Shown: one piece after another, positions 54,337 through 63,577 of the stretch | Position numbering within the stretch: the stretch's first letter is position 1 | How the letters are laid out: each line of letters starts with the position of its first letter | NCBI RefSeq assembly: GCF_000022485.1 | Contig: NC_012623.1 | Span: forward strand, 1,116,001-1,180,000 | Reading direction: 5' to 3' | Length of the DNA: 64,000 bases | Source: Sulfolobus islandicus Y.N.15.51 | GTDB lineage: Archaea; Thermoproteota; Thermoprotei_A; Sulfolobales; Sulfolobaceae | The notes under the pieces: model-generated | The model's database searches: none | Seen by the model: the letters and a program-made list of their open reading frames with translations, nothing else | Told to the model about the DNA's origin: nothing | Made by a program: the position numbers and the translations under genes

Positions 54337-55038
54337 ATGGAAGTTAACAAGATTTCTGAGGGAAAGACCAAGATAGTTTATGATTTTGATAAAGATCATG
54401 TATTACTCAGGTTTAAAGACGATATAACCGCTGGTGATGGTCAAAAAAGGGATGTAATGGAGGGTAAGGGCGTTTTAAACGCTCAAACATCAGCATTCTT
54501 CTTTAGATTATTGGAAAGAAATGGTATAGAAACACATTACGTAGGGATGAAAGATGAAAGAACAATGATAGTAAAGAAATTAAAGATGATACCAGTAGAA
54601 GTTGTACTAAGAAACATCGCAACGGGCAGCATAGTCAAGCGATTACCAATAAAAGAGGGCGAGGTTTTCGAACCGCCAATAGTAGAATTTTTCTTAAAGG
54701 ACGACTTGCGTCATGATCCTTTACTTAACTATTACCACATGGAACATCTTAAATTAATGAGTAGAAAGGAGGCTCAGTATATAGAAGACATAATGATGAA
54801 GACAAATGATGTATTATTCAATTTTATTAAAAATAAAGGCTTAATATTATATGACTTTAAGTTAGAATTTGGCCGTTTAGGCGATAAATTAGTGATAGGA
54901 GATGAAATATCACTAGATAGTATGAGGATTAGGGATCCTAATTCAAGAATATACGATAAGGATTTATATAGAAAAGGTTACGATTTGAAAACAGTAAAAG
55001 CCTCATATGAAGAATTTCTAAAAAGAATTGCCTCATGA
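54337..55038 (+). CDS. purC: SAICAR synthetase
   Basis: A 233-residue enzyme that adds aspartate to CAIR. Marks: [13 protein letters not shown] (about 5-17), [26 protein letters not shown] and EISLDSMRI. First gene of the purine operon; overlaps purS region by 4 nt of its open frame. Full length. Confidence 0.94.
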
Positions 55039-55049
55039 GGTTCCCTTGT

Positions 55050-55304
55050 ATGAAATACTATGTAGAATTGATAATAATCAATAAAGACTCCGTTAGAGAC
55101 CCTGAAGGAGAAACAATACAAAGGTATGTTATTGAAAAATACGCAAACAACATAATCGAGACAAGAGTAGGAAAGTACATTCAGTTTAAAATTGAGGCTA
55201 ATAATGAAGAAGATGCTAAGAATTTAATTGAGAAAATTGCACGTGAGGGAAGATTATACAATCCAATAGTTCATAAAATTTTCGCCAGAGTGAGAAAAGA
55301 ATGA
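55050..55304 (+). CDS. purS: FGAM synthase subunit PurS
   Basis: An 84-residue beta-alpha-beta protein bridging PurQ and PurL: YYVELIIINKDSVRDPEGETI at the start and AREGRLYNPIVHKIF near the end. ATG 55050 is preferred to ATG 55035 because GAGGT lies 8 nt upstream and the length matches the family. Overlaps purQ by 4 nt. Confidence 0.9.
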   Translation: MKYYVELIIINKDSVRDPEGETIQRYVIEKYANNIIETRVGKYIQFKIEANNEEDAKNLIEKIAREGRLYNPIVHKIFARVRKE

Positions 55305-55975
55305 TTGCAATAGTTAAGTTCCCTGGTACTACTTGTGAAGCTGATGTCTATAAGGCGTTAATGGAGGCCGGAGTCCCCACAGTGATAGTAAAATATAAGG
55401 AATTCGATCCAGATAAATATAATGGAGTAATTTTACCTGGAGGATTTAGCTTTGGGGATTATTTAAGAGCTGGAAGTATTGCAGCTAGTACAGAAACTAT
55501 AAAGAAAGTTAAGCAAATGGCAGAAGAAGGAAAAATAGTAATTGGAATATGTAATGGGTTCCAAATCCTTGTTGAAAGCGGACTATTAAAAGGGGCCTTG
55601 TTACCAAATTTAAAATTAAGATTTATCTCGAAGTGGGTTTCCCTTAAGGTAATTAGAACCGATACAGTCCTAACTAAAGGACTAGACAAGAAAATAATAA
55701 GAATGCCCATAGCTCATGCAGAAGGTCGCTATTATGTAGATGATGTAGATTATGCAAAAACAAACATGGTTCTTCAATATTGTGATGAGAACGGGAATGT
55801 AAGTGAGGATACAAATCCCAACGGATCATTGCTTAATATAGCATCAATAGCCAATGAAGAAGGGAATGTAATAGGAATGATGCCACATCCGGAGAGGGCT
55901 TCCTTTAAACTGACCTCAGTTGATGGAACAGTGGATGGGTTAATTCTTTTGAGGAGGTTAGGAAAATGGGCTTAA
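55301..55975 (+). CDS. purQ: FGAM synthase glutaminase subunit PurQ
   Basis: A 224-residue class I glutaminase: FPGTTCEADV at the N-terminus, LPGGFSFGDYLRAG (about 46-59), nucleophile Cys in GICNGFQIL (about 86), and MMPHPERAS with the His/Glu pair. It supplies ammonia to PurL. ATG overlaps purS; the end overlaps purL by 10 nt. Confidence 0.94.
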   Translation: MIAIVKFPGTTCEADVYKALMEAGVPTVIVKYKEFDPDKYNGVILPGGFSFGDYLRAGSIAASTETIKKVKQMAEEGKIVIGICNGFQILVESGLLKGALLPNLKLRFISKWVSLKVIRTDTVLTKGLDKKIIRMPIAHAEGRYYVDDVDYAKTNMVLQYCDENGNVSEDTNPNGSLLNIASIANEEGNVIGMMPHPERASFKLTSVDGTVDGLILLRRLGKWA

Positions 55976-58095
55976 ATCTTCTCCCGATAGAAATGGACGA
56001 CATTCGAAAAAGGTTAGATAGAGAACCTAATGAGATTGAGTGGAGGGTGATTGACGCTGTATGGTCAGAACATTGTTCTTATAAGTCATCTAAAATCTTC
56101 TTGAAGAGCTTTTCCATAGATAGCCCCAATGTCATAATGGGCATAAAAGACTGGCAAGATGCTGGAGCAGTGGACATAGGAGATGGATGGGCTATAGTAA
56201 TAAAGGTTGAAAGCCATAACCATCCGTCCGCAATTGATCCATTTAATGGTGCCGCAACAGGTGTAGGAGGAATAATAAGGGACATTATCAGCAAGGGGGC
56301 TAAACCAATTGCACTCATGGACATGATAAGGGTTGGAAATCTAAAAATAAGGAAAAACGTATGGTTACTTAAGAACATAATTGCGGGAATTGCGGCATAT
56401 GGAAATAGTATTGGAGTTCCAGTAGTTGGTGGAGAATTATCATTCGATGATACATATAATGATAATCCGCTAGTAGATGTAGCAGCAATTGGAATAGTTA
56501 GAAAAGATAAGATAAAACCAAGTATAGTAGATAAAGCAGGACTTAAATTAGTGTTAGCAGGACTTACTGGAATTGATGGTTTAGGTGGGGCTTCATTCGC
56601 GTCCAGAAAGTTAAGTGGTGAAGACGAAATTGGAGCAGTACAGATAGCTGATCCTTTCGCTGGGAAAATTATACTAGATGTAACATTAGAGATTGCTGAT
56701 AAGGTAGAGGCTATTAAGGACTTAGGGGGCGGAGGGCTAGCAGTTGCTGTAACTGAGATGGCAAATGGACTTGGTGCTATAGTAGATATAGAGAAAATTC
56801 CGTTACGTGTAAAAAATATGGATCCTGCAGACGTAATCATATCTGAAACACAAGAGAGAATGTTATACGCAGTGGAGGAGAAAAACGTTGAGGAAGTATG
56901 TAAAGCTTTTGAAGAGTACGAATATCCTTGCAGTGTAATAGGTGAGATAACTAGTGAACCAATAATTAAGTTTAGATATTTTGGTAAAGATCTCGTTTCC
57001 CTGCCCACAAACGCGTTACTGGAGCCACCGAAGTTTTTATGGCCAATAAAAAACGTTAGGAAGAACGTTGAAGAGAAAAATGTTGATTTATCGTTAGAAA
57101 GCACAATATACACTGTATTATCACATCCAGATTTGGTAAGTAAAGAATGGGTTTATTCGCAGTTCGATTATGAAGTAAATACCTCAACAGTAGTCAAACC
57201 CGGTGATGCTAATGGCGCAGTAGTTTCGCTTCCTAACGGCAAGTTATTAGCGATAAAGGCCGATGGAAACCCTGACTTGTGCTCTGAGGATGCATATGAG
57301 TGTGGAAAAGGAATCGTGGCAGAGGCTTATAGAAATTTGGCTACAGTAGGAGCTAGAGGAATGGTTGCAGTTGACCATTTACAGTTTGGGGATCCAAAGA
57401 AGCCAGAAGTTTACTATACTTTCGTAGAAGCAATAAGAGGTATAGGGGAGGCTACTAGATTCTTTAACATACCTATTGTTGGCGGGAAAGTATCATTTTA
57501 TAATGAAAATAGTCAAGGAAAACCAATAAAGCCAACACCTTTAATAGTAATGGCAGGGTTAGTTCAAGGTAAATTACTTAAAAATAGAGTGGAAGATAGT
57601 TCATACGTTGTATTACTGGGGTACACACGAAAAGAATTAGGAGGATCACTATTATCAAAGATATTTAAGGTTCCTAGCCAAGCTCCTAAAGTAAGGTTAC
57701 AAGAGGATCTATTATCTTCTGAGGTAGTAATTGATGCTATAAATGAGGAGAAAATTACATTTGCGAAGGATATAAGTAGAGGTGGCCTAGCGGCTTCTCT
57801 TTTCAACATAATAGTTCATGGATACGGAGTAGAAATAAGTACTAAGAGTATTTTGAGCGATACTGACAATGTTGTAGAGAATTTATTCTCTGAAAGTAGT
57901 GGACGTTTCGTTATCTTAACTAATGAACCAGAATGGATAGTTGAAAAGAGCAGGAGTAAAGGTATTGTAGCATCTATAATAGGAAAAGTTAATAAAAAAA
58001 CAAGTATATTAACCATTGACAATACAGATTATGATCTTAAAACTATAGTTAATAATTACTTTAATTTTCTTGAGGAGGTGATAGGTAATGGGTAA
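55966..58095 (+). CDS. purL: FGAM synthase subunit PurL (small type)
   Basis: A 709-residue ATP-dependent synthase of the short type, which needs separate PurS and PurQ; both are directly upstream. Marks: VWSEHCSYKSSK (about 30-41), VESHNHPSAIDPFNGAATGVGG (read in parts, about 82-103), GGGGLAVAVTEMANGLG and the second AIR-synthase-like half with GDANGAVVSLPNG. Overlaps purF by 8 nt. Confidence 0.94.
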   Translation: MGLNLLPIEMDDIRKRLDREPNEIEWRVIDAVWSEHCSYKSSKIFLKSFSIDSPNVIMGIKDWQDAGAVDIGDGWAIVIKVESHNHPSAIDPFNGAATGVGGIIRDIISKGAKPIALMDMIRVGNLKIRKNVWLLKNIIAGIAAYGNSIGVPVVGGELSFDDTYNDNPLVDVAAIGIVRKDKIKPSIVDKAGLKLVLAGLTGIDGLGGASFASRKLSGEDEIGAVQIADPFAGKIILDVTLEIADKVEAIKDLGGGGLAVAVTEMANGLGAIVDIEKIPLRVKNMDPADVIISETQERMLYAVEEKNVEEVCKAFEEYEYPCSVIGEITSEPIIKFRYFGKDLVSLPTNALLEPPKFLWPIKNVRKNVEEKNVDLSLESTIYTVLSHPDLVSKEWVYSQFDYEVNTSTVVKPGDANGAVVSLPNGKLLAIKADGNPDLCSEDAYECGKGIVAEAYRNLATVGARGMVAVDHLQFGDPKKPEVYYTFVEAIRGIGEATRFFNIPIVGGKVSFYNENSQGKPIKPTPLIVMAGLVQGKLLKNRVEDSSYVVLLGYTRKELGGSLLSKIFKVPSQAPKVRLQEDLLSSEVVIDAINEEKITFAKDISRGGLAASLFNIIVHGYGVEISTKSILSDTDNVVENLFSESSGRFVILTNEPEWIVEKSRSKGIVASIIGKVNKKTSILTIDNTDYDLKTIVNNYFNFLEEVIGNG

Positions 58096-59443
58096 CATAC
58101 ATGATAAATGTGGTATCTTTGCTGTATCTAGTCCTAAAGAAGTAAATATTCAACTACTAGTAGAGGGAATTAGACTACTTCAGCATAGAGGTCAAGAATC
58201 GGCAGGTATCGCATATGCTGAGAATGGGGAAATATTGACAATTAAGGGACTTGGACTTGTAGATGAAGTATTTAAGGAAAATCTTAATAAATTTATAAAA
58301 AATGGAATAGGTCATGTAAGATATTCAACAAGTGGAAAAAGCTCAATTGAAGAAGCACAACCTTTAGGTGACTCAAGCGTAGTTGTGACATTTAATGGGA
58401 CTATAAGTAACTATTATCAATTTGGTTCATTTAAAGTAGATACTGAATTTATATATAGGTTCTTTAAGCAAAAATTAACCTTTCACTCTATTCCCGATAC
58501 CGTAAAGGAATTTATGAAAGTTGTTGATGGTGGATACTCTGTAGCTATTCTTTTGAATGATGAAGAGATTGTGATATTTAGAGATCCTAGAGGATTTCAT
58601 CCAGTTGTATTAGGATTTTTAGAAGGATCATTAGTAGTTTCCTCGGAGGATTCCGTTATTAGACAGCTAGGTGGGAGCGTTTTGAAACACATTCTACCAG
58701 GGGAGGTGATAACAATGAAAAATGGCAAAATATTATATGACAAAGTGATCTATGAAGAGGAGAAGAATTATGCTACTTGTTCCTTCGAATATATATACTT
58801 TGCAAGACCGGATTCTAATATAGATGGACATTCAGTCTACTCAGCTAGGATAAGGTTAGGTGAGTTATTGGCAGAGAAACATCCAGCTAATGGAGATATT
58901 GTAGTTCCAGTGCCGGACTCATCAAGACCGATAGCGTTGGGCTTTTCTAGAAAAAGTCGTATACCTCTGGAGGAACCTCTAGTTAGAACAATTTCCTCCG
59001 TAAGATCATTCATAATGCCAACTCAAGATAAGAGAAATGAGGTATTAGAAGAGAAATTTGGAGTGGTTGTTGATGCGGTAAGGGATAAAAGAATAGTTTT
59101 GATAGACGACTCAATAGTTAGGGGAAATACTATGAAGAGAATAATAAGTATGCTACGTAATGCTGGTGCCAAAGAGATTCATGTACGTATAGGATCACCC
59201 ATGATAAAATACCCTTGCTATATGGGAATAGACTTTCCTAAAAGAGAAGAGTTAATTGCCCATAATAAATCTGAAAGAGAAATAGGAAATGAGTTGAATG
59301 CAGATTCTATTGAATTTCTAAGTGTTGAAGAGATGGTACAAGCAATAGGTAGAAGGGATTTATGCAACGCGTGTTTTTCTGGGGTTTATCCTCTCAAATT
59401 TAAATATAATTCGACAGAGTTAGAAAGAGTATTTGGGAAGTGA
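58088..59443 (+). CDS. purF: Amidophosphoribosyltransferase (active form)
   Basis: A 451-residue enzyme of the first committed purine step. After a short propeptide MGNIHDK comes the nucleophile in CGIFAV (C8), then LQHRGQESAG, RYSTSG, FNGTISN (oxyanion Asn-Gly), and the PRPP loop VLIDDSIVRGNTM (about 338-350). Four cysteines at the expected Fe-S positions are present (TCSFEY, PCYMG, LCNAC). The next gene is a paralogue that lacks the nucleophile. Start ATG overlaps purL. Confidence 0.93.
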   Translation: MGNIHDKCGIFAVSSPKEVNIQLLVEGIRLLQHRGQESAGIAYAENGEILTIKGLGLVDEVFKENLNKFIKNGIGHVRYSTSGKSSIEEAQPLGDSSVVVTFNGTISNYYQFGSFKVDTEFIYRFFKQKLTFHSIPDTVKEFMKVVDGGYSVAILLNDEEIVIFRDPRGFHPVVLGFLEGSLVVSSEDSVIRQLGGSVLKHILPGEVITMKNGKILYDKVIYEEEKNYATCSFEYIYFARPDSNIDGHSVYSARIRLGELLAEKHPANGDIVVPVPDSSRPIALGFSRKSRIPLEEPLVRTISSVRSFIMPTQDKRNEVLEEKFGVVVDAVRDKRIVLIDDSIVRGNTMKRIISMLRNAGAKEIHVRIGSPMIKYPCYMGIDFPKREELIAHNKSEREIGNELNADSIEFLSVEEMVQAIGRRDLCNACFSGVYPLKFKYNSTELERVFGK

Positions 59444-59448
59444 TATTA

Positions 59449-60654
59449 ATGGCTGGAATACTAGGTATATTGGCATTCGATGACGTATGGAACGTATCTA
59501 GGTTTTTATATTATGGCCTAATAGGCTTACAACATAGAGGATACTCTAGAAGTGGAATAGCAATATTAAACAAGCAGAGAAATATATTTACTAAATTAGA
59601 GAACGTAGCACCTGAGGATCTTGAAATTAAAGACCTAAACGGATGGGCTGGAATAGGTTATGCTGGAATCAGAAATAAATATCCAATGACATTAGATAAC
59701 GGCGCCATAGTCGTTGATGGAATAATAGATGATACAAATATTCTTAACCGGGTCATAAAGGAGCCAGAAAAGACAATAGATGAGATTAAAAAACCAATCT
59801 CGTTCATAGCGATAAGTAAAGAAGGCCAGTTAATAGCCTATAGAGATGAATTAGGACTTAAGCCACTTAGCATAGGTGGATTTGGATTTGATTTAGCGGT
59901 TATTTCCTCTGAGCCAACATCAATGCTTGTAATAGGAGCTGAGTTCAAAAGGGAAATTAATCCAGGAGAGTTGGTAATTGTTGACAAATACCATATTGAA
60001 TCAAAACAAGTAAGGATGTCTAGAAAATCATATTGCACTATAGAGTACGTATACCAAGCGAGAATAGACAGTATAGTCAACGAAAAAGATATCTATGACT
60101 TAAGAGTGAAAATAGGGGAAGAGTTAGCTTTAGAATACCCAATAAGGACTGACTCAGTTATAGGAGTTCCAGAGACCGCATTACCTTTCGCAATAGGTTA
60201 CTCTAGGAAATTAAACATACCACTAGACTTGGGTTTTACTAGAACTGGAAGTCCAATAAGGACAATGTTATCATCTGATGCTTTCCTAAAGGTGGTTGGG
60301 GTTCAACTTAAACTAAACCCAATAAAAAGTGCGGTAAAAGGAAAGAGAATAATTCTTATAGATGATTCAATGGTTACAGGAACTACACTTAAAAATACCA
60401 TATTTAACTTGAGAAAACTGGGTGCAAAGGAAATCCATGTACTAATAGGAAGTCCTAAATTAATCTCGCAATGTCCATATGGGGTTGAGGTTCCTGAGGA
60501 AAAGGAATTAATCTCAGCTAATCTCGATGATGAAAAAATAGCTAGAGTTTTAGGTGCAGATTCTATACATTGGTTGAGTTTAGAAGGTCTATTCAGAGTT
60601 ATTGGACATAGGAACCTCTGCTTAGGGTGTATGACTAAAAAATACCCATGGTGA
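59449..60654 (+). CDS. PurF paralogue with inactivated glutaminase domain
   Basis: A 401-residue protein aligned along its whole length with PurF. The N-terminus is MAGILGILAF, so the nucleophile Cys is Ala. The oxyanion FNG is VDG, and RYST is replaced. The phosphoribosyltransferase half is kept: ILIDDSMVTGTTL PRPP loop and all four Fe-S cysteines (SYCTIEY, QCPYG, LCLGC). It may be a regulatory or scaffold partner of PurF, or may use free ammonia. ATG 59449 follows GTGAT. It sits between purF and purD in the operon, so it is probably made with them. Confidence 0.88.
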   Translation: MAGILGILAFDDVWNVSRFLYYGLIGLQHRGYSRSGIAILNKQRNIFTKLENVAPEDLEIKDLNGWAGIGYAGIRNKYPMTLDNGAIVVDGIIDDTNILNRVIKEPEKTIDEIKKPISFIAISKEGQLIAYRDELGLKPLSIGGFGFDLAVISSEPTSMLVIGAEFKREINPGELVIVDKYHIESKQVRMSRKSYCTIEYVYQARIDSIVNEKDIYDLRVKIGEELALEYPIRTDSVIGVPETALPFAIGYSRKLNIPLDLGFTRTGSPIRTMLSSDAFLKVVGVQLKLNPIKSAVKGKRIILIDDSMVTGTTLKNTIFNLRKLGAKEIHVLIGSPKLISQCPYGVEVPEEKELISANLDDEKIARVLGADSIHWLSLEGLFRVIGHRNLCLGCMTKKYPW

Positions 60655-60659
60655 GAAAA

Positions 60660-62099
60660 ATGAAAGTATTATTAGTCGGGGATGGAGCAAGAGAAAACGT
60701 CCTAGCTCATTCACTAGAAAAATCCACTAAAGGTTACAAGGTCTACGGGCTGTCGACATACATTAATCCTGGAATTAATTCAGTAGTGAAAGCAACTGGT
60801 GGAGAGTATTTTATAGGTAACACAAACCAACCAGAAATTGTTAAGGAAGTAATTAAGAAAGTAAACCCAGATTTTGGAGTAGTTGGGCCAGAGGACCCAT
60901 TATTCCGTGGAATTGCAGACGTTCTTAGACAAGAGGGAATACCAGTATTTGGAGCTAGTAAAAAGTGCGCTAGAATAGAGGAATCCAAAGCATGGGCAAG
61001 AGAGTTAATGTGGAAGTATTCTATTCCGGGGAGGTTAAGGTATAAGGTATTTTATACAATAGAAGACGCCGCAAAGTTCATATTAGAATATGGAGGTTCT
61101 GTTGCAGTTAAACCCGCTGGCCAAGCTGGAGGAAAAGGTGTTAAGGTAATAGCTGACTTAGAGGCTTACTTAACACAAGATAAAAGAGAGGCACTGACAA
61201 AAAGCGTAAACGATATAGGGAGTCTATACAATAAGGAAGGTGAGCCAAGAATTATAATAGAGGAGAAAGTGGATGGACCAGAATATACACTTCATGTTTT
61301 AACTGACGGAAAAACAACTATTCCTCTACCTTTGGCTCAAGATTATAAGAACGCATATCAGGATGGGATAGGCCCTGAGACTGGAGGGATGGGGTCAATT
61401 TCTGGACCTACTGAATTACTCCCATTTATCAATAACGAGGAGTACCAAACAACTTATGACATAGTTAAAAGGACTATAGATGCAATATATAAAGAGACTG
61501 GAGAGAATTACGTAGGAGTCATAGCAGGGCAAATGATGTTAACTGAACTTTGGGGGCCTACGGTAATTGAATATTACTCAAGATTCGGTGATCCAGAGGC
61601 TTCGGCCATAATTCCAAGAATAGAGTCTGATTTTGGAGAAATAATTGAGTTTACTGCTACTGGACATTTGAGTAAAGCTCGTATAAAATTAAATGACCAA
61701 CCTTCTATAGTAAAAGCTGTTGCTACTTTAGGATATCCTATCTCGAAACAAATGGCATCTGGACGTAAGATTGTTTTGGATTTAGATAAGATGAAAGAGC
61801 ATGGATGTATGGTATTTTTTGGATCTGTGGCGTTAGAGGGAATGCAGCTTATAACCAAAGGCTCCAGAGCTTTAGAAATAGTTGCAATAGGAGATTTCAG
61901 AGAAGCTTCTGAGAATTTGGATAAGTGTATTCAATACGTTAGTAGCGATACTAAATTAATATATAGAACTGACATTGGAAGGACAGTTGAATATCAGATC
62001 GAGAAGGCTGAAATTATAAGATATTCTTATAAAAATAGAGAAAAAAGAGGAATTCTTGGAGTTTCTGCAGATTGGTCTCCCAATGGTGGGTTGTGGTGA
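60660..62099 (+). CDS. purD: Phosphoribosylamine-glycine ligase
   Basis: A ~479-residue ATP-grasp enzyme that makes GAR. Marks: VLLVGDGARENVLAHSL, VVGPEDPLFRGIADVL, KPAGQAGGKGVKV (about 142-154) and the metal site RFGDPEASAIIPR. It is ~50 residues longer than bacterial PurD. ATG 60660 follows GGTGAG; ATG 60648 is less likely. The end overlaps purM by 4 nt. Confidence 0.93.
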   Translation: MKVLLVGDGARENVLAHSLEKSTKGYKVYGLSTYINPGINSVVKATGGEYFIGNTNQPEIVKEVIKKVNPDFGVVGPEDPLFRGIADVLRQEGIPVFGASKKCARIEESKAWARELMWKYSIPGRLRYKVFYTIEDAAKFILEYGGSVAVKPAGQAGGKGVKVIADLEAYLTQDKREALTKSVNDIGSLYNKEGEPRIIIEEKVDGPEYTLHVLTDGKTTIPLPLAQDYKNAYQDGIGPETGGMGSISGPTELLPFINNEEYQTTYDIVKRTIDAIYKETGENYVGVIAGQMMLTELWGPTVIEYYSRFGDPEASAIIPRIESDFGEIIEFTATGHLSKARIKLNDQPSIVKAVATLGYPISKQMASGRKIVLDLDKMKEHGCMVFFGSVALEGMQLITKGSRALEIVAIGDFREASENLDKCIQYVSSDTKLIYRTDIGRTVEYQIEKAEIIRYSYKNREKRGILGVSADWSPNGGLW

Positions 62100-63064
62100 G
62101 TGAAGAATATAAGAAAGCAGGAGTTGATTTGGAAAGATTACGTAATTATCATAATGCAATTTCTCAAATAATCTCGTCTACTTATAAAAATACTATTGTA
62201 GGAGCAGGGCATTATTCTGGAGTAATTAAGATAGGTAATCTTAACATAGCAATGCATACTGATGGTGTAGGAACAAAGACTTCACTAGCCTTACAAACTG
62301 GAATAATAAAACCTGTAGGAATAGACTGCGTTGCTATGAATGTTAATGACCTCATATGCGTTGGAGCAAAGCCAGTTGCCTTAGTAGATTATATTGCCTT
62401 AGAAAAGCCTATGGATAATGTGATAAATGAGATTATTAATGGTATTGTTCAAGGTGCCAAAGATGCTGATGTTGAAGTTATTGGGGGAGAGACCGCTATT
62501 ATGCCAGATGTGATTAGAGGATTTGATCTTTCTTGTACTGCGATAGGAGTTGTAGATAATCTAAAAACTGGAGTTGACATAAAGCCTGGAGACTACATAT
62601 TGGGATTAGAGAGCAATGGCATACATTCTAATGGGTACTCCTTAGTTAGGAAATTAATAGAAGAAGGTAAGATTTCACTTGATGAGTATAAAAGGGAATT
62701 ATTAAAACCAACTAGAATTTATGCCAAACAAGTTTTGGAAGTTATGAATATGATAAAGGGAGCAGCACATATAACTGGCGGTGCATTTACTAAGCTTAAA
62801 AGGCTTACTAGTTATAAGATTGTCTTAAATATGCCTGAACCCCCAGAGATTTTTAAAATTATCGAAAAAGCAGGAGTGCCTCATGAGGAAATGTATAAAG
62901 TTTTCAATATGGGCATAGGTATTGTCTTATTTATTTCAGAAGAATTAATGAAAGAAGTAAAAACAAAACTAGAAAGATATGGAACTGTATATGAACTTGG
63001 CAGAGTATATAATGGAAATGGGATCACTATAAAGACTTATAAGAACGAGATTCTCAGAGTATAG
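62096..63064 (+). CDS. purM: Phosphoribosylaminoimidazole synthetase
   Basis: A ~322-residue AIR synthetase. Marks: YKKAGVDLERLRNYH, MHTDGVGTKTSLA (about 54-66), MNVNDLICVGAKP, VIGGETAIMPDV and AHITGGAFTKLKRL. GTG 62096 gives a GTGA overlap with the purD stop. Last recognisable purine enzyme in the cluster. PurN/PurT and PurE are not in the window. Confidence 0.92.
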   Translation: MSEEYKKAGVDLERLRNYHNAISQIISSTYKNTIVGAGHYSGVIKIGNLNIAMHTDGVGTKTSLALQTGIIKPVGIDCVAMNVNDLICVGAKPVALVDYIALEKPMDNVINEIINGIVQGAKDADVEVIGGETAIMPDVIRGFDLSCTAIGVVDNLKTGVDIKPGDYILGLESNGIHSNGYSLVRKLIEEGKISLDEYKRELLKPTRIYAKQVLEVMNMIKGAAHITGGAFTKLKRLTSYKIVLNMPEPPEIFKIIEKAGVPHEEMYKVFNMGIGIVLFISEELMKEVKTKLERYGTVYELGRVYNGNGITIKTYKNEILRV

Positions 63065-63095: not shown

Positions 63096-63123
63096 ATATA
63101 GAGGGTTCCAGTGGCCTCTATAT
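63096..63123. repeat. Perfect 9-bp inverted repeat over start of HTH/zinc-finger gene
   Basis: ATATAGAGG (63096-63104) and CCTCTATAT (63115-63123) are exact inverse complements around a 10-bp spacer. The repeat covers the expected transcription start (A-box CCTTTTAAAC at about 63078-63087) and touches the ATG at 63122. Half-site centres are 19 bp apart, about two helical turns. This is the classic position for an autorepressor operator; an mRNA hairpin hiding the start is an alternative. Confidence 0.5.
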
Positions 63124-63577
63124 GAAACAAACTGATATAAAGTCTTTAGTAAATTACGTAGCTTTAAAGATACTAGGTGGAAGCGACTATCTATTAGAAG
63201 CATTAGAAGAATACTTAGTTAAGGGAGAAGGACCAGCTACAGTAGCCTATAAATATAATATTTCAAAACATCAACTCCGCGGCTATGCCCAAAGAATTAT
63301 TGAGAAGAGCGGAAGTGAAGGAAAAGCTAAGAAACTCGTGCCAATACTTAAAGCCATTTCAGAGGGAATTACACCAATAGTCAAAAAGGAAAACGACGGA
63401 TCATACGAGTGCTCATTATGTAATATTATTGTGGCTAAAGAAGATAGTGAAGAGCATATTAGGAAGTACCATAAAGAGATTCTCAATGAAAATATTAATA
63501 TCATGATGCAAAGATTAGAGAAAATAAAGAAAGACATACAACAAAATAAAGCCGTAATATTTACTTCTGTAAGTTAA
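63122..63577 (+). CDS. HTH protein with C2H2-type zinc finger
   Basis: A 151-residue protein. GPATVAYKYNISKHQLRGYAQRIIEK (read in parts, about 37-62) reads as a helix-turn-helix. A single C2H2-like finger follows: CSLCNIIVAKEDSEEHIRKYH (Cys ~98/101, His ~113/118). A charged coiled helix ends the protein. It probably binds DNA and may dimerise through the tail. The inverted repeat at its start suggests self-regulation. Its place after purM makes the pur operon another possible target. No named family is recognised. Confidence 0.75.
   Translation: MKQTDIKSLVNYVALKILGGSDYLLEALEEYLVKGEGPATVAYKYNISKHQLRGYAQRIIEKSGSEGKAKKLVPILKAISEGITPIVKKENDGSYECSLCNIIVAKEDSEEHIRKYHKEILNENINIMMQRLEKIKKDIQQNKAVIFTSVS

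Follow-up and report, generated by a model that had tools for sequence, protein, structure and literature searches.

Why does a purine biosynthesis operon carry two adjacent genes for PurF-like proteins, one of which encodes a protein deprived of the catalytic cysteine? This question is raised by the window, that is, the whole stretch of 64,000 nucleotides of the Sulfolobus islandicus Y.N.15.51 genome that was analyzed. The window contains the co-directional run purC-purS-purQ-purL-purF-purF'-purD-purM (54337 to 63064), in which the ATG of purF' lies 5 bases past the purF stop (59443) and purD begins (60648) before purF' has ended, the two genes overlapping at the purF' stop codon. The purS gene was assigned using NCBIfam, and purC, purQ and purL were named from their own sequences and not by a family search. 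Pairwise alignment of PurF' with the PurF encoded upstream showed an identity of 35%. No further full-length PurF-like genes were found in the genome; three other matches were glutaminase-domain matches inside longer proteins. Positions of the features are given in the table.

Two PurF-like proteins per studied crenarchaeon, forming two clusters, have been described previously, and the cluster without the N-terminal cysteine was named PurF' (Brown et al. 2011, PMC3261824). In that work, PurF' was clustered with purine genes, an ammonia-dependent enzyme was proposed and tests were called for. Likewise, the window protein has no Cys1, is a second copy beside a Cys1-bearing PurF, is encoded among pur genes and is placed separately in the tree. 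It matches the published description; thus, the gene is the PurF' of Brown et al. and the finding is a rediscovery of what was already known. No later functional work on crenarchaeal PurF' was found in the open literature, and the pur genes are not discussed in the main text of the S. islandicus essential-genome paper (PMC6249222).

Features of the purF' locus (positions in the window)
Feature	Position	Strand	Basis
purC, purS, purQ, purL, upstream in the same run	54337..58095	+	gene order common to Sulfolobales relatives
purF, canonical glutamine PRPP amidotransferase, partner gene	58088..59443	+	TIGR01134, 384 bits, over cut-off
purF', PurF paralogue with dead glutaminase, 401 aa	59449..60654	+	ORF from ATG 59449 to TGA 60654; alignment to PurF
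Degenerate Ntn (glutaminase) domain without RYST and FNG; Cys1 replaced by Ala	59449..60018	+	
Ala codon replacing catalytic Cys1	59452..59454	+	
Trp14 (B. subtilis column 10), PurF'-specific, 124/132 PurF'	59488..59490	+	
Type I phosphoribosyltransferase domain	60025..60651	+	Pfam PF00156, 41.4 bits
Fe-S ligand Cys196	60034..60036	+	alignment
Lys288 (E. coli Lys349), flexible-loop PRPP contact, 132/132 PurF'	60310..60312	+	role: PMC7953260
PRPP loop LIDDSMVTGTT	60355..60387	+	
Fe-S ligand Cys342	60472..60474	+	alignment
Fe-S ligands Cys391 and Cys394	60619..60630	+	alignment
purD (GAR synthetase), immediately 3' of purF', overlapping	60648..62099	+	TIGR00877, 345 bits, over cut-off
purM (AIR synthetase)	62072..63064	+	PF00586/PF02769

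The alignment of the two neighbors confirmed what the earlier note had read from the sequence, namely that the second PurF is without its glutaminase nucleophile and retains the PRPP loop together with the full set of four Fe-S cysteines. PurF' begins with MAGILGI where PurF has CGIFAV, residue 1 after Met removal being Ala; RYST is absent, and FNG of PurF is replaced by VDG, with which the Asn-Gly oxyanion pair is gone. In E. coli PurF, Arg73 salt-bridges glutamine, and Tyr74 and Ile335 wall the ammonia channel (PMC7953260). The cysteine residues C196, C342, C391 and C394 are equivalent to B. subtilis C236, C382, C437 and C440. PurF' scored 207 bits against the NCBIfam PurF equivalog model, under the cut-off of 350; the Pfam search found the phosphoribosyltransferase domain, and the two glutamine amidotransferase models that match PurF remained sub-threshold. 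In terms of the features of the PurF family, the window protein has the PRPP loop, the flexible-loop Lys, the four Fe-S cysteines and a predicted two-domain fold, and it lacks Cys1, the RYST and Asn-Gly residues and an equivalog-level score.

PurF' and PurF relatives were sampled with particular search patterns and score cut-offs, and residues were counted in 132 non-redundant PurF' and 139 PurF sequences using B. subtilis numbering. Arg72, which corresponds to the glutamine-bridging Arg73 of E. coli, was found in 0/132 PurF' versus 139/139 PurF. Tyr73 (E. coli Tyr74) and Thr75 (E. coli Thr76) were each kept in a single PurF', and Asn102 in 10 of the 132. Beyond Cys1, these residues strongly support the earlier claim of a dead glutaminase half. 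This state is shared by 132 non-redundant relatives and is not a matter of chance. Cys1 itself was kept in seven PurF', all of which are Asgard records; these seven also lack Arg72, Tyr73 and Thr75, and thus the shared trait is the loss of the glutamine site, whereas the loss of Cys1 is not universal. The seven records (L104:5983-7323, L105, L106, L107, L116, L120 and L124; Jordarchaeia, Freyarchaeota and Sigynarchaeota) have a short leader before Cys1 and keep the Asn of FNG. It is possible that these proteins, with Cys1 and this Asn but without Arg, Tyr and Thr, represent an intermediate state of loss.

A replacement nucleophile was also considered, as Ser (18 of 132) and Thr (20 of 132) occur at the Cys1 position. 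This is unlikely: Ala, Pro and Gly often occupy the position too, and no PurF' retains the Arg that binds glutamine. One further candidate for a Cys1-bearing PurF', L090, was rejected, being a true PurF misassigned by the pairwise score. Marks peculiar to the PurF' clade include Trp10 and Pro383 (130/132), and the pair Arg26-Gly27 in the dead domain was found in 132/132 sequences.

The PRPP site presents the opposite picture. R245, D247, R259, P281, T283, R311, K328, D345, D346 and G351 were each found in 132/132 PurF'; in the numbering of the window protein, the invariant residues of this site include R205, D207, R219, R271, K288, D305, D306 and G311. The Fe-S ligands were present in 128-132 of the 132 sequences. 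PurF was less strict than PurF' at positions 245, 247, 328, 345 and 351. According to the alignments, PurF' cannot bind glutamine in the known way, and its set of PRPP-binding residues is complete. A division of labor, in which PurF loses the PRPP site and PurF' keeps it, was rejected as a general rule, since the changes of PurF at 245, 247 and 328 occur whether or not PurF' is present as a partner, while 139/139 PurF keep D346, R350 and R311. PurF sequences with an altered PRPP site (K328 to Trp, Glu or Asn; R245 to His or Asn; D247 to Ser) came from Nitrososphaeria-type and related genomes (L052-L056, L073, L084, L085, L088, L089, L126, L128 and L135).

In the region of the channel and flexible loop, Phe313 was found in 139/139 PurF and is replaced by Ala or Met in nearly all PurF'. 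Other channel-facing changes of PurF' are Tyr308 to Arg, Ser or Gly and Arg307 to Gly, with Thr283 fixed. These clade-specific residues could fit a transfer of phosphoribose to a different amine acceptor, which would be a novel reaction within the purine pathway or next to it. However, purF' almost always lies in pur runs, adjoining purF and purD (as mapped with pur-gene profiles only), and we regard such a reaction as quite improbable.

Modeling of PurF' using AlphaFold led to a model that was confident throughout except around the flexible loop (pLDDT 93.2, pTM 0.90). The model was aligned with Arabidopsis PurF 6lbp over 393 residues at 2.0 A (VIA Z 45.6) and also matched B. subtilis PurF 1ao0 (Z 43.8), and its Ntn domain matched the GlmS glutaminase domain 1xff (VIA Z 23.5). 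The dead domain is therefore predicted to keep its fold. The dN/dS values of this domain in close pairs were mostly 0.03-0.15, the same range as for the live glutaminase of PurF; pairs with saturated dS were uninformative. Such values indicate that the dead Ntn domain is under purifying selection and is maintained. The loss of the glutaminase site might by itself suggest a decaying, functionless duplicate, but this explanation is refuted by the 132 intact relatives in several archaeal lineages with the above dN/dS range and an invariant PRPP site.

The distribution of PurF' was evaluated in two genome samples, in which PurF and PurF' were counted by hand from the search tables. In the order of the window's organism (117 genomes), PurF' was found in 49 of the 51 PurF-positive genomes and in none of the genomes without PurF; the completeness of the two PurF-positive genomes that lacked it was 56% and 77%. 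Neither absence of the gene from close relatives nor erosion of its PRPP loop there, two of the signs that the earlier note had named against its reading, was found. In the phylum-wide sample (151 genomes), PurF' was present in 56/105 PurF-positive and 0/46 PurF-negative genomes. PurF without PurF' was found in 47 of these 105, which belong to ten families including the ammonia oxidizers; two further PurF-positive genomes carry PurF at a contig end. Thus, no genome with PurF' and without PurF was found in either sample. A scan of named genomes, which are mostly metagenome bins, so that single lineage assignments may be wrong, revealed PurF' in the Asgard groups Jordarchaeia, Freyarchaeota, Sigynarchaeota, Baldrarchaeum and Njordarchaeota, as well as in Bathyarchaeota, Methanomethylicota, Brockarchaeota, Nezhaarchaeota, Theionarchaea and Methanofastidiosia. 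In a tree of the phosphoribosyltransferase domain (36 PurF' and 47 PurF rows), all of these diverse PurF' were placed on one side of a branch with an SH-aLRT of 100; a single origin of PurF' is thus the simplest reading.

Several single records deserve mention. L103 (JAFMDM010000015.1), titled Euryarchaeota, has its pur genes in a run of the Sulfolobales type and a PurF' that clusters with those of Sulfolobaceae; it is probably a mislabeled or contaminated bin. This record and four named Sulfolobales records share with the window the place after purM of a 151-aa protein (63122-63577 in the window) that has a zinc-finger-like C-x2-C...H-x4-H pattern and no Pfam match. In L102 (Vulcanisaeta sp. 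JCM 14467), purF, purF', purD and purM are each apparently split into two open frames, which points to sequencing errors in the draft. Among the matches listed, none had an open frame of the length that a purF-purF' fusion would need.

The dependence on PurF bears on the main rival explanation, the role proposed by Brown et al. (PMC3261824): when ammonia is plentiful, PurF' would form PRA by itself as an ammonia-dependent PRPP amidotransferase (PRA synthase), corresponding in nature to the C1A mutant of E. coli PurF. The intact PRPP site and the loss of channel-wall residues (the Tyr74 position and the equivalent of Phe334, now Ala or Met) are consistent with this role, PurF with a replaced Cys1 keeps ammonia-dependent activity, and purF' adjoins purD, whose enzyme uses PRA. 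Nevertheless, PurF' never replaces PurF, the ammonia-oxidizing archaea (AmoA in 7/7 tested of the family) have PurF without PurF', and the Ntn domain, which should be dispensable in such an enzyme, is under selection. This role is consequently rated as unlikely, and a partner role of PurF' is favored over a stand-alone enzyme by the strict dependence on PurF together with the purD linkage. The earlier note had offered a regulatory heteromer, an ammonia-dependent enzyme and a new phosphoribosyl reaction as possible functions.

The same samples were used to assess whether PurF' could be the missing crenarchaeal IMP cyclohydrolase, its dead Ntn domain acting like PurO. PurO has an Ntn fold without the nucleophile, Crenarchaeota have no known IMP cyclohydrolases (PMC6797443), and 55 of the 56 PurF'-positive genomes lack both PurH2 and PurO. 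The search with the PurO profile (TIGR01922) gave no matches in any of the 151 genomes, and the controls matched. The phyletic test with the PurO and PurH models did not support this function, since both are likewise missing from 40 of the 47 genomes with PurF and without PurF', among them all 23 genomes of the ammonia-oxidizer family. In addition, one genome of the phylum sample (G142, family f16) has PurF' and a full-length PurH match, the only such PurF'-positive genome; Pyrococcus has no known IMP cyclohydrolase either (PMC6797443), and two PurF-like genes were reported in one euryarchaeon only, M. labreanum (Brown et al., PMC3261824). Few residues of the Ntn domain of PurF' are conserved outside Sulfolobaceae. 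All this makes an IMP cyclohydrolase very improbable.

Among the 80 relatives from the named-genome scan, purF' adjoined both purF and purD in 66 with usable flanks and purD only in 4; purF' beside purF only was not found except on 2 cut contigs. The statement of the earlier note, a conserved pseudo-glutaminase beside the active enzyme, is supported; most purF' lie in the order purF-purF'-purD. In genomes without PurF', purF often adjoins purD, and therefore the purF-purD pairing is probably ancestral, with purF' inserted within it. When the trio is broken, purF' mostly stays with purD and purF with purL: in 20 genomes chosen for purF' away from purF, 11 had purF' beside purD and 5 had it in a purD-S-Q-purF' run. 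This association is suggestive of, though not proof for, a role at the point of PRA use. PurF' may even be a handover subunit that links PurF to PurD and passes phosphoribosylamine within a stable PurF-PurF'-PurD complex in Asgard and TACK archaea, which we consider rather doubtful; in bacteria, PurF-PurD channeling was seen kinetically and no stable complex was found (PMC10912719).

Taken together, the absence of the glutamine site, the full PRPP site, the maintained Ntn domain, the lack of PurF' in genomes without PurF and a gene placed between purF and purD allow us to assume, tentatively and at just under an even chance, that PurF' is a PRPP-binding pseudo-amidotransferase that assists PurF as an obligate partner in the opening steps of purine synthesis (PRPP to PRA to GAR). 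PurF' would join PurF in a hetero-oligomer that replaces the usual homotetramer, and its dead Ntn domain would be retained for assembly. Its phosphoribosyltransferase site could bind PRPP and perhaps purine nucleotides, and through this site PurF' might set the activity of PurF and/or present the labile phosphoribosylamine to PurD. Whether PRPP is turned over with ammonia at the PurF' site inside such a complex is about an even matter. Against the partner role, adjacency and co-occurrence would fit any enzyme of the same pathway as well. Furthermore, PurF with a full active site occurs without PurF' in the 47 genomes noted above, so that PurF does not, as a rule, require PurF' in order to function.

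The function of PurF' would tell whether the committed step of purine synthesis is carried out by a hetero-oligomer, with ammonia, or with a subunit that hands over PRA. Over much of the Archaea, Asgard lineages among them, the PRPP site is conserved more strictly in PurF' than in PurF. Given the reliance of PurF' on PurF and its linkage to purD, the question of two PurFs becomes one of options that can be separated experimentally.

Among the known systems compared with PurF' is PurF (TIGR01134; 1ao0, 6lbp), with which it shares the whole fold, the PRPP loop, the flexible-loop Lys and the Fe-S ligands, and from which it differs in the shortened Ntn domain and in the lost Cys1, RYST and Asn-Gly pair. 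PurO is likewise an Ntn-fold protein of the purine pathway without the nucleophile, but the window's genome has no match to its model. The human NUDT5-PPAT pair, in which a partner protein controls PRPP amidotransferase (PMC13421311), may be similar by analogy in partner control only, NUDT5 being an unrelated protein and a nucleotide-glued inhibitor. Like the Cys1 mutants of E. coli PurF, PurF' appears to be incapable of glutamine use while its phosphoribosyltransferase domain is intact; however, these mutants keep Arg73 and the channel, and PurF' has lost both. Compared with the PurF' of Brown et al. 2011, the clade is extended here to Asgard, Bathyarchaeota, Methanomethylicota, Theionarchaea and Methanofastidiosia, Cys1 is found to be retained in some Asgard members, and the loss of the glutamine-binding Arg, the PRPP site kept in 132/132 sequences and the purD linkage are documented.
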